Shown: piece by piece, positions 13,251-60,998 of the stretch
How the letters are laid out: each line of letters begins with the position of its first letter
Numbering within the stretch: the stretch's first letter is position 1
Origin: Candidatus Nanohaloarchaea archaeon
GTDB taxonomy: Archaea > Nanohalarchaeota > Nanosalinia > Nanosalinales > Nanosalinaceae
Direction: 5' to 3'
Assembly (NCBI GenBank): GCA_014297435.1
Contig: JACOQA010000001.1
Span: 124,001 to 188,000 of the forward strand
Length of the DNA stretch: 64,000 bases
Translations under genes and position numbers: made by a program
Notes under the pieces: generated by a model
Databases searched by the model: none
Told to the model about the DNA's origin: nothing
Seen by the model: the letters and a program-made list of their open reading frames with translations, nothing else

Positions 13251-13460
13251 TTTATAAGATTTCCAGGTTGAAATTCAGATTATGAGTCAGGCAATCAAGG
13301 GTGGACGCTTTATCGTCCGGAAAACTGCATTCTATAAATAGGTCTGACTACAAATTAACTGAAGTTTTCTCAACTATTGTATCTGTCTCAATTATCTCTA
13401 TTATCTTCATTATTTCGTAGAACCGGCTTCTCTCCAGTAAAACGGCGGGAAGCCCCTTTT
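13251..13460 (+). promoter_or_regulatory. Leader element A: TATA, ATGAGTCAGG start, hairpins, T run
   Basis: A TATA box TTTATAAG (13251-13258) is followed exactly 31 nt later by ATGAGTCAGG, where a leaderless transcript would begin. A 19-codon frame starts there. A GGACG/CGTCC hairpin lies at 13303-13318. A second stem (GGCTTC 13425-13430 with GAAGCC 13449-13454) is followed by a T run just before the next gene at 13479. The same design and spacing recur at 15489-15620. Attenuator-like control or a small RNA is inferred. Confidence 0.45.
13282..13341 (+). CDS. Possible 19-aa leader peptide A
   Basis: ATG at 13282 opens MSQAIKGGRFIVRKTAFYK and ends at TAG 13339-13341. It is placed exactly where a TATA box 31 nt upstream would start a leaderless mRNA. 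The only support is its position and the matching MSQ start of the second leader at 15520. It could equally be the 5' part of a non-coding RNA. Confidence 0.25.
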   Translation: MSQAIKGGRFIVRKTAFYK

Positions 13461-13478
13461 CTTTGATGTGATCTACAA

Positions 13479-13970
13479 ATGCAAACACGAGCACTACCCA
13501 ACACAGATGAGCACGAAGAGGAAAACCAGAAACAAATCCACAGCTATGATCCGGAGAATAACTGGGAAAGATTTGACCCATCAGAGTCTTGGGTGTCCAA
13601 CGAGGATCTTTCTACAGCCGCCGAATACCTTGACTCGATGGAAGCCGGTGTTAAACCTCACGAAGTCTTCCAGAAAGGCGATTATGTGAGACTCGAGAGG
13701 GCTGGTGAAAGAGTTGTAGAAGGAGAGCTCCACGCTGTTGTAGAAGAGATGGGGTCGGACCGGTACTTCCTTGAGATCGATACTTCTGAAACCTTGAATA
13801 GTGGACTGAACCGTGAAAGTTATGTGATACCTTTCAAGCTTGAAGCTTCCGACTTCGATATCTCGAACGATTCAAGGACGGAGGTCTACCTGAACGGTTC
13901 TGAAAGTGAGGTTGCGAGGCTGGAGCCCGGTCTGGAAAACGGTATGGATTCCGACGTCTATACCGGTTAG
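13479..13970 (+). CDS. Hypothetical acidic protein
   Basis: 163 aa, not recognised. It has an acidic, polar N-terminus (DEHEEENQKQIHSYDPEN). A middle part resembles a small beta-barrel with G-D-Y-V-R-L-E-R pattern (FQKGDYVRLERAGERVVEGE), and a beta-rich C-terminus follows. There are no transmembrane segments or cysteines. It lies downstream of leader element A, and a TTCTCCCC plus T-tract terminator follows its stop. Confidence 0.6.
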   Translation: MQTRALPNTDEHEEENQKQIHSYDPENNWERFDPSESWVSNEDLSTAAEYLDSMEAGVKPHEVFQKGDYVRLERAGERVVEGELHAVVEEMGSDRYFLEIDTSETLNSGLNRESYVIPFKLEASDFDISNDSRTEVYLNGSESEVARLEPGLENGMDSDVYTG

Positions 13971-15488: not shown

Positions 15489-15620
15489 TATTTAACGATT
15501 CTAGATATTAAGACAGGTTATGAGTCAGGGCGTATCCAAAGAAAGTTTTGCTGAGTTTGACGCCCTCTATATGTATTATTTCTATTGAAGTACATCCCTC
15601 GCTATTTCAAGAGGGCTTTT
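15489..15620 (+). promoter_or_regulatory. Leader element B: TATA, ATGAGTCAGG start, hairpin, T run
   Basis: TATTTAAC at 15489-15496 is followed, again exactly 31 nt on, by ATGAGTCAGGG. GGGCGT (15528-15533) can pair with ACGCCC (15560-15565). Downstream CCCTC (15596-15600) pairs with GAGGG (15611-15615), immediately followed by CTTTT. The next gene starts at 15642 with GGAAAGGTG before it. The arrangement matches leader element A. Confidence 0.45.
15520..15588 (+). CDS. Possible 22-aa leader peptide B
   Basis: ATG at 15520 opens MSQGVSKESFAEFDALYMYY plus two residues (FY) and ends at TGA 15586-15588. It ends in an aromatic, Tyr-rich stretch. Support is positional: the TATA box, the MSQ start shared with leader A, and the terminator-like hairpin after its stop. 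Confidence 0.25.
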   Translation: MSQGVSKESFAEFDALYMYYFY

Positions 15621-15641
15621 AACTGGAAAGGTGCTTCTAAC

Positions 15642-58909: not shown

Positions 58910-60835
58910 TCAGTTGAGGAAGTCGGTTCTGAGTTTCTTCTCCTCAACTTCATCTCTCAACCTCTCTCTGAACTCTTCGACGCTGATATCACTTTCTTCA
59001 CGCTCCTTTCTGTCCCGGACTGAAAGGTTTCCTGCTTCTTCCTCATCGTCTCCAAGGATCAGCATGTAAGGAACGTTGTCGTCGTGAGCTGCCTGAATCT
59101 TCTTCCCGACAGTCCACGAACGGCTCTCTATCTCTACCCGGAAGTCGTCAAGCTCTTCCTGGATTTCCCGTGCATAATTAATGTTGTCGTCCGTAACAGG
59201 AAGGATCCTTACCTGTTCAGGAGCTAACCACGTCGGGAAGTCTCCTGCGAAGTGCTCGATCATTACTCCCATGAAGCGTTCGATGCTTCCGAGGATCGCT
59301 CTGTGAAGCATGACTGGATAGTGCTCTTCGTTGTCTTTACCAACGTACTTGAGACCGTAGTTTCTCGGAATAACAAAGTCGAGTTGAACTGTTCCTAGTT
59401 GCCATTCACGTCCAATCGCGTCCTCTACTTCTACGCCGATCTTAGGTCCGTAGAAAGCACCTTCTTCAGGTTTAATCTCGTAATCATCTACTTTTTCCTC
59501 TAAAGCATTTTTCAGGGCTGTTTCTGCCTCATCCCATAGCTCGTCCGGGCCCTGGGCTTTTGGAGGCTTTGTCTCCATTATGAAGTTGACCTCGAAACCA
59601 AACTCGTCGTACATCTCAATAATCTTCTCGAGGTGTGCTTTTACCTCTTCCTCGATCTGGTCTTTACGCATGTAGGCGTGTCCATCGTCCTGCGTCAGAA
59701 CACGGACTCTTAGAAGACCGGAAAGCTCTCCGCTCTGTTCATTACGGTTGACGGTTCCGAATTCGGAAAGCTTGATTGGAAGCTCTTTGTAGCTTCTCTT
59801 GTCACTGTCGAAGATATGGCTGTGGTTCGCACAGTTCATCGGTTTCAGACCGTACTCGGTGTCGTCTTGTTCCCAGGCAAACATCTCGCCTTCTTCCTTG
59901 AAGGCTTCGTAGTGACCTGTCTTCTTCCAAAGTTCGGCTTTGTTCAGTTCTGGTGTCCAGACCTCTTCGTAACCGAGTTCTTTGTTCTTCTCACGGATGT
60001 ACTCTTCCAGCTCTCTCCTGATTGTCATGCCGGCACGATGGTAGTGAGGCGCTCCCGGAGCGTGTTCGGGTACGGAGAATAGATCCATCTCCTTCCCGAT
60101 CTTTCTGTGGTCGCGTTTCTCGGCCTCCCTCTTCTTTTCAAGGAAGTCTTCAAGTTTTGACTCTGTCGGGAATGCTGTTCCATAAACTCTTGTCAGCATC
60201 TCGTTTTCTTCATCTCCTCTCCAGTAAGCTCCGGCAATCTCCAGAAGCTTGAAACCTTCTACTTCGCCTGTCGAGGAGACGTGAGGTCCTTTACACAGGT
60301 CCTTGAACTCTCCCTGTTTATAGAAAGAAACCTCGTCGCCTTCACCGGCTTCGTTATTCAGAATCTCTCTTTTGTATTCGTTGTCTTCAAAGAACTCTTC
60401 TGCTTCTTCACGTGGAAGCATCTCTCTTTCGATTTCAAGGTTTTCTTCCACTATCTTCTGCATCTCTTCCTCTATCTCCTCGAAGTCTTCCTCCTCGATC
60501 TCGATCCCTTCAATATCGTAGTAGAAGCCTTCGTCAGTCCAAGGTCCGATTGTCAGTTTTACGTCGTCGCCGTAGATTCTCTTGAGTGCCTGCGCAAATA
60601 CGTGGGCTGCGGAGTGTCTTAGAACCTGGATATATTCATCGCTCTGATCCGTAACTATCTCTATCTCATCTCCTTCTGACACGTTCTCTTCTTTCGCAAC
60701 CAGCTCGCTGTTGATCTTTCCTGCTACGGTATCGTCGCCGAGACCTGTACCTATCTCGTACGCTACATCTTCGATTGTTGCGTGTTCTTCGACCTCTAGC
60801 TCGGATCCGTCCGGAAGTTCCACTTGAATGCTCAT
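58910..60835 (-). CDS. thrS: Threonyl-tRNA synthetase, bacterial-type with N2 editing domain
   Basis: 641 aa. Domain order is TGS (residues 1-62), N2 editing domain with HSAAHVFAQAL and KGPHVSSTGEV, and the class II core (motif 2 region VRVLTQDDGHAYMR). The core also has the zinc Cys/His in NCANHSHIFD and motif 3 LHRAILGSIERFMGV. The anticodon domain PEQVRILPVTDD comes last. This is the bacterial/eukaryotic-like architecture rather than the archaeal form with the DTD-like N-terminal editing domain. Acquisition by transfer is likely. TTTAAATAG precedes the ATG. Confidence 0.96.
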   Translation of the reverse strand: MSIQVELPDGSELEVEEHATIEDVAYEIGTGLGDDTVAGKINSELVAKEENVSEGDEIEIVTDQSDEYIQVLRHSAAHVFAQALKRIYGDDVKLTIGPWTDEGFYYDIEGIEIEEEDFEEIEEEMQKIVEENLEIEREMLPREEAEEFFEDNEYKREILNNEAGEGDEVSFYKQGEFKDLCKGPHVSSTGEVEGFKLLEIAGAYWRGDEENEMLTRVYGTAFPTESKLEDFLEKKREAEKRDHRKIGKEMDLFSVPEHAPGAPHYHRAGMTIRRELEEYIREKNKELGYEEVWTPELNKAELWKKTGHYEAFKEEGEMFAWEQDDTEYGLKPMNCANHSHIFDSDKRSYKELPIKLSEFGTVNRNEQSGELSGLLRVRVLTQDDGHAYMRKDQIEEEVKAHLEKIIEMYDEFGFEVNFIMETKPPKAQGPDELWDEAETALKNALEEKVDDYEIKPEEGAFYGPKIGVEVEDAIGREWQLGTVQLDFVIPRNYGLKYVGKDNEEHYPVMLHRAILGSIERFMGVMIEHFAGDFPTWLAPEQVRILPVTDDNINYAREIQEELDDFRVEIESRSWTVGKKIQAAHDDNVPYMLILGDDEEEAGNLSVRDRKEREESDISVEEFRERLRDEVEEKKLRTDFLN

Positions 60836-60998
60836 AACGCTTCACTTCGGAGAGAACTATTTAAACGGTTTTGAGTGCAGCTGCGACTACAGCTGTAGAA
60901 GTTCAACTTGCGACGGGGTAAAACATCCACCCTTCATAATTGATCAAGTATTATTGGATGTCTGAACAGTTAATAATCTTCCCCGACCCTTTATCGGT

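Follow-up and report, generated by a model that had tools for sequence, protein, structure and literature searches.

A nanohaloarchaeal leader element and its relatives as a candidate amino-acid sensor family acting by hungry-codon +1 frameshifting

Introduction

In the autoregulation of the bacterial prfB gene, which encodes release factor 2, a short in-frame stretch with an internal Shine-Dalgarno (SD)-like element, together with a U-rich codon in the P site and a slow one in the A site, decides whether the ribosome shifts by +1 into the main frame; in the yeast elements Ty1 and Ty3, a +1 shift is promoted by a slow A-site sense codon. Bacterial attenuation at trpL, pheL, and ilv/leu relies on a short leader open reading frame (ORF), regulatory codons, and a terminator-like hairpin before amino-acid genes, and in T-box riboswitches one specifier codon sets the specificity across many synthetase and amino-acid genes. 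Regulatory frameshifting within a leader has been named for ermC, where a telithromycin-induced shift in the leader ORF switches on the downstream gene (PMC5009743). Frameshifting also takes place at pheL but is judged incidental, and the same review knows of no case in which hungry-codon frameshifting has a starvation-specific function (PMC5009743). Few cases appear in a review of archaeal recoding (PMC8211752). The subject of the present analysis is element A, positions 13251-13478 of a 64,000-nucleotide (nt) stretch of contig JACOQA010000001.1 (GCA_014297435.1), hereafter the window, from a Candidatus Nanohaloarchaea archaeon.

Element A probably belongs to a family of amino-acid-specific leader ORFs that would sense amino-acid supply by hungry-codon +1 frameshifting, a reading to which we assign a probability of about 0.8. 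The existence of the sensor family is well supported at the sequence level by (i) a conserved block, (ii) a cognate specifier codon directly behind it, (iii) constraint on the reading frame of the leader, and (iv) the architecture of the overlapping +1 frame. Neither such leaders nor synthetase regulation of this kind in this lineage were found in the open-access papers searched, and the leader-ORF sensor set of these salt-loving nanoarchaea is apparently undescribed so far.

Layout of element A

Frame 0 denotes the frame of the leader ORF, frame B the +1 frame, and X the specifier codon directly 3′ of the conserved block. All features of element A lie on the forward strand:

13251-13258, +: TATA box TTTATAAG (TTTATA at 13251), 31 nt before the leader ATG, read from the sequence
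13282-13341, +: leader ORF in frame 0, 19 codons, MSQAIKGGRFIVRKTAFYK followed by a stop; read from the sequence and from in-frame ATG counts in relatives
13297-13311, +: conserved block AAGGGTGGACGCTTT (consensus ARGGTGGMYRYKTT), from pattern counts in 28 genomes
13312-13314, +: specifier codon ATC (Ile), the hungry codon proposed to occupy the A site at the shift, on the strength of cognate X codons at synthetase loci of relatives
13313-13420, +: frame B ORF, to be reached by the proposed shift; stop TAG at 13418-13420
13376-13417, +: Ile-rich end of frame B, IVSVSIISIIFIIS, like most Ile and Leu leaders of relatives
13425-13464, +: terminator-like hairpin and T-rich run, from RNA folding
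13479-13970, +: 163-amino-acid gene behind element A (ORF)

The hairpin comprises 8 base pairs between GGCTTCTC (13425-13432) and GGGAAGCC (13447-13454) and is followed by the T run TTTTCTTT (13457-13464), which ends 14 nt before the ATG at 13479. A first-pass annotation of this DNA, made from the sequence alone, had already noted a hairpin with a T run ahead of the gene, a 19-codon frame from 13282, and a TATA box 31 nt before ATGAGTCAGG; each is present, the TATA distance being exact with ATGAGTCAGG at 13282. Its attenuator-like label is plausible for the 3′ hairpin. Taken as a whole, the leader outdoes its shuffles in folding by only a moderate margin (z = -2.17; 7 of 200).

The conserved block

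Counts rest on pattern searches plus fetched DNA stretches. Searching the relatives with element A gives short matches covering the stretch after the ATG block, GCAATCAAGGGTGGACGCTTTAT, and AAGGGTGGACGCTTTAT with up to two mismatches recurs across the window's own family. The consensus ARGGTGGMYRYKTT occurs 102 times in 28 Nanohaloarchaea genomes versus 12 times for the reversed pattern, and twice in the window versus 0.02 expected, nearly always inside a tiny ORF just 3′ of a TATA-like region. When all synonyms are allowed (ATGAARGGNGGNYGNTTY; the window's family and one sister-family genome), every match still reads GGT-GGA, and codon 4 of the block is YRY, i.e., Arg, Cys, His, or Tyr. Because the third positions of GGT and GGA are fixed and codon 4 is confined to YRY, the constraint operates at the nucleotide rather than the peptide level, and conservation of a KGGRF peptide was rejected on these grounds.

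Across 366 genomes of other archaea, matches are scattered, carry other codons, and remain near the control number. A collection of bacterial and archaeal contigs yields 13 matches, eight from Nanohaloarchaea and five single bacterial ones, the latter near chance. The named carriers of the block are Nanohaloarchaea; elsewhere it occurs at about chance level.

The first-pass annotation had instead taken ATGAGTCAGG as the conserved unit and TATA-N23-ATGAGTCAGG as a search key. That key fails, and the unit was rejected: ATGAGTCAGG is not conserved in relatives, whose leaders start MSK, MSS, MSL, MRY, etc. Of its five exact copies in the genome, two are the leaders of elements A and B, and the other three, judged by eye, seem to fall within longer genes. 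Missing conservation of the ATGAGTCAGG block or of the hairpins had been named as grounds for abandoning that proposal, and, taken literally, such conservation is absent. What is conserved in the same ORF is a different block (13297-13311) together with its specifier codon and the +1 frame that overlaps the ORF, all of which had been overlooked.

The leader reading frame

An uninterrupted in-frame ATG lies within 12 codons 5′ of the block at 84 of 106 distinct places in the fetched DNA, compared with 5 and 6 for the other two frames. In leaders with two blocks (e.g., MSKATKGGRFIGRLEKGGRVLQER), which combine Ile with Leu or Val with Leu, the spacing between blocks is a multiple of three. The leader-peptide reading proposed earlier is right, and the small-RNA alternative offered beside it is disfavored, since the block keeps its reading frame with the upstream ATG. 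As in leader-peptide regulators, a short ORF stands 5′ of an amino-acid or synthetase gene, and the enrichment of frame-0 ATG codons predicts its translation. When the leaders are aligned, T/A content peaks between -34 and -24 relative to the ATG and no SD-like signal precedes the start codon, which agrees with leaderless mRNA.

The specifier codon and the downstream genes

Downstream genes were named by NCBIfam hidden Markov models (HMMs). The set of 45 synthetase loci comprises those with a synthetase start near the frame-B stop, and no synthetase-adjoining matches were seen outside it. X is cognate to the adjoining synthetase at all 45 loci, which span nine specificities (Gly 12, Ser 9, Thr 7, Val 6, Tyr 4, Pro 3, Cys 2, Phe 1, and Leu 1); shuffling X among the loci gives an expectation of about 7.6 matches (341/45). 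The correspondence between regulatory codon and downstream gene extends to Trp and Ile: Trp leaders head TrpRS-containing operons (five HMM-checked loci), as they also do in the genome of the window, and ilvA has an Ile leader before it in one case. The window itself contains a second member of the family, whose frame-B stop overlaps the thrS ATG by 4 nt (ATGA):

60887-60937, -: leader ORF MKGGCFTPSQVELLQL followed by a stop, beginning MKGGCFT; block at 60920-60934, specifier ACC (Thr)
58913-60835, -: threonyl-tRNA synthetase gene thrS (NCBIfam thrS, E 4e-191; L088)

The gene behind element A is less readily placed. Its 163-amino-acid product has no match in a Pfam search, and no relative of it occurs among the first genes 3′ of the other non-synthetase leaders. 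The Ile leader divergently adjoins the proteasome beta gene in two genera (L003 and L005; 12486-13160 in the window), where the downstream gene differs.

The overlapping +1 frame

Among 100 leaders, 91 have frame B as their longest frame, and it remains open past the frame-0 stop. At 45 of 45 loci, the stop of frame B and the first ATG of the synthetase ORF are no more than 15 nt apart, with a 4-nt ATGA overlap at 19; the corresponding counts are 0 of 45 for frame 0 and 9 of 45 for frame +2. The printed p-value of 3.5e-32 overstates this evidence because the loci are related by descent, yet nine different genes share the layout.

In non-synthetase leaders, frame B stops earlier; where X is Ile or Leu, it mostly ends in a run rich in Ile/Leu. 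The frame-B end of these leaders is mostly 0.4-0.9 Ile/Leu/Val, usually above the other frames, and it often forms one arm of, or abuts, a hairpin with a T-rich tail; seven Trp leaders retain Ser-Trp near the frame-B end. Several non-synthetase leaders have a hairpin with a T run behind them; ahead of synthetases, frame B leads directly into the gene. A third group encodes the protein in frame B itself: a GNAT-like protein before an M20 peptidase, an M20 peptidase, and an aminotransferase all begin at the block. The M20 peptidase of L240 has no ATG near its start and aligns with the M20 peptidase of the window from almost the first residues. Two MazE/AbrB-like DNA-binding domains (L227 +353; L065 2514-2681, minus strand) likewise begin at the block and are encoded in frame B, after His and Tyr specifiers. 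An overlapping +1 frame that carries the function, as in prfB-type shifts, is present.

Several leaders show further elaborations. Some Trp leaders (L239 +286/+338, L224 +3992, and L068 +171) carry a further block-like copy, placed in the +1 frame of the first one, which suggests two shifts in series. Most of the SerRS leaders L064, L076, L083, L085, L101, L103, and L135 share a conserved, KPVLDKNF-like frame-B end, AAACCTGTTYTAGATAAAAATTTCT, in which either the peptide or the RNA may be under selection. In other families of the order, the serS genes of L138, L152, L157, and L158 have leaders that start M(Q/K/T)GFYRQ-S, with AAGGGTTTTAYCGCCAA followed by a Ser codon; in L138 the +1 frame, judged by eye, likewise reaches the serS start, making this a second cassette type seen for serS only. 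The pattern AGGGTTTTAYCGCCAR of these serS leaders was rejected as a general second cassette, being exact at only four serS genes.

Proposed mechanism

The leaderless transcript would begin near the leader ATG, and the ribosome would read M…K-GGU-GGA-YRY-UUU until UUU (or GUU) occupies the P site and X the A site. With charged X-tRNA at hand, reading would continue to a frame-0 stop a few codons later. When X-tRNA is scarce, X would become a hungry codon and the ribosome would slip by +1 into frame B, probably aided by pairing of ARGGUGG with the 16S tail. The outcome would then depend on the class of downstream gene. For synthetase genes, frame B stops at the start codon and would feed ribosomes to the gene by termination-reinitiation. 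For other amino-acid genes, element A included, ribosomes in frame B would translate codons for that amino acid or for related ones and, on reaching the stop at the terminator-like hairpin, would open or mask that hairpin. In the third group, frame B would constitute the coding sequence of the protein itself. For element A, a shortage of Ile is predicted to cause a shift at 13312, translation to 13420, disturbance of the hairpin at 13425-13454, and expression of the 163-amino-acid gene.

Codon choice at the proposed shift site is in keeping with this scheme, which is the simplest single account of the leaders. Codon 5 of the block, directly before X, is GUU in 24 of 27 cases in which X begins with C (Leu, Pro) and in 6 of 73 others (p = 1.7e-14), and is otherwise UUU. 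This would fit avoidance of UUU-C, on which tRNAPhe could re-pair perfectly (onto UUC) and slip even when nothing is scarce. ARGGUGG, some 7 nt away from the P-site codon, is able to pair with the 16S tail; the tail sequence GGATCACCTCC was found in seven relatives and not in the window's own assembly. It is likely, though we hold this slightly less firmly than the frameshifting reading of element A, that one 14-nt cassette with an exchangeable hungry codon constitutes a genome-wide modular code covering at least ten amino acids, with two-input forms (Ile plus Leu, Val plus Leu) and some proteins whose synthesis depends on the shift.

Alternative explanations

Plain ribosome-stalling attenuation, in which a stall at X alone rearranges the RNA or exposes the gene start and no shift occurs, would equally be served by an X cognate to the gene and by the T-run hairpins after several leaders. 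It has no account of a +1 frame that is open and ends at the synthetase start in 45 of 45 loci, nor of Ile/Leu-rich frame-B runs and frame-B proteins, and is improbable. Somewhat less probable still is internal initiation at the GTG of the block, whereby frame B would be translated from that codon and frame 0 would only gate access to it. The block does hold a frame-B GTG (within GGTGGAC), and another start is often absent from frame B. A start codon would tolerate ATG, yet ATG, CTG, and TTG are not enriched at the place of the GTG: when its first base is set to A, C, or T, there are 29 matches versus 43 in the control. Since this base is invariant, the GTG does not behave as a start. A leaderless transcript would moreover leave little space for an upstream SD sequence, and a ribosome held up at X would sit on top of the GTG and confer the wrong sign of control. 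The invariant first base, this covering of the GTG, and the choice of codon 5 before C-initial specifiers are three independent hints in favor of a shift over internal initiation.

A T-box-like RNA, whose specifier codon would bind uncharged tRNA without any translation, shares the specifier-codon logic and would suit a block conserved in its nucleotides rather than its peptide. Against it stand the strict frame with the upstream ATG and the paired blocks spaced by multiples of three, which indirectly speak against independence from translation; Rfam likewise returns no match to element A, element B, or the region between them, T-box included, at the gathering threshold or E<1. We regard it as very unlikely. 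Least credible of all is a set of small KGGRF peptides conserved for a function of their own. N-termini are similar across loci, but GGT and GGA are fixed next to a codon 4 that varies as YRY among Arg, Cys, His, and Tyr, the peptide beyond X shows no conservation, and X tracks the downstream gene.

Several observations weigh against frameshifting as the basis of these sensors. The shift itself, the direction of control, the 16S pairing, and the coupling or antitermination step are all inferred from sequence alone. The SD-like pairing is separated from the P-site codon by about 7 nt, compared with 3 in E. coli prfB, so it may serve to pause the ribosome rather than to push it. Re-pairing after a +1 slip is poor for tRNAVal on GUU-C and for tRNAPhe on UUU-A or UUU-G, and out-of-frame decoding without slippage may be needed instead. 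Certain Ile/Leu leaders (L014, L024, L094, and L200) head operons of chorismate mutase and prephenate dehydratase, an unexpected pairing, and the link of the 163-amino-acid gene to Ile is a prediction only. Leaders that precede one gene in several related genomes also do not count as independent.

Element B

The first-pass annotation described the layout of element A as recurring with identical spacing at a second place in the window, here element B (15489-15635). The TATA-to-ATG distance is indeed the same (TATTTAA at 15489, ATG at 15520), and element B has its own hairpin (15596-15615) followed by a T run. The two are nevertheless not copies of one element, and a single duplicated element was rejected: they have about 12 nt in common (TTATGAGTCAGG), and the remainder gives no meaningful alignment. 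Element B has no match in 18 relatives. Its leader ORF is as follows:

15520-15588, +: Tyr-rich leader ORF MSQGVSKESFAEFDALYMYYFY followed by a stop, without the conserved block

Element B looks like an ordinary Tyr-rich attenuator, unrelated to element A, before a 117-amino-acid gene and an M20 peptidase. Relatives of this peptidase occur in Trp-leader operons.

Predictions and comparison with known systems

Hungry-codon frameshifting has long been treated as an accident, and the dozens of loci assembled here point, as far as sequence can, to its systematic use in sensing. On this reading, several Nanohaloarchaea genes are likely mis-annotated at their starts. The frameshifting model predicts exact trans-frame peptides, in which …GGRF is joined to the +1 frame, and can be tested directly on them. 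In M3_22 (L080, CP046106.1), a shift predicts the junction peptide …EQGGRF-GSLEIEVHQNPEEF (…QGGRF-GSLEIEVHQ), and a GTG start predicts the N-terminus MDVFGSLEIEVHQ.

Among the described systems, prfB resembles these leaders in its in-frame stretch, internal SD-like element, and slow A-site codon after a U-rich P-site codon. Its slow codon is UGA and it serves one gene; the leaders described here are archaeal, have a sense codon that varies with the gene across about ten or more amino acids, and differ in SD spacing. They are also mostly separate from the genes they precede, with in-gene fusions only in some cases. Ty1 and Ty3 likewise pair a +1 shift with a slow sense codon, but they are eukaryotic transposons with a fixed rare codon and no amino-acid regulation. 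The ermC leader comes close in that a shift within it switches on the downstream gene; the signal here would be uncharged tRNA. Bacterial attenuators share the short leader ORF, regulatory codons, and terminator-like hairpin, to which the present leaders add a fixed 14-nt block, a single specifier codon, and an overlapping +1 frame that carries the regulatory run. T-boxes likewise serve many genes through one specifier codon; the block here is tied to a translated frame, and the region of elements A and B has no Rfam T-box match. If the frameshifting model holds, these leaders would represent an archaeal counterpart to T-boxes built on another physical principle.
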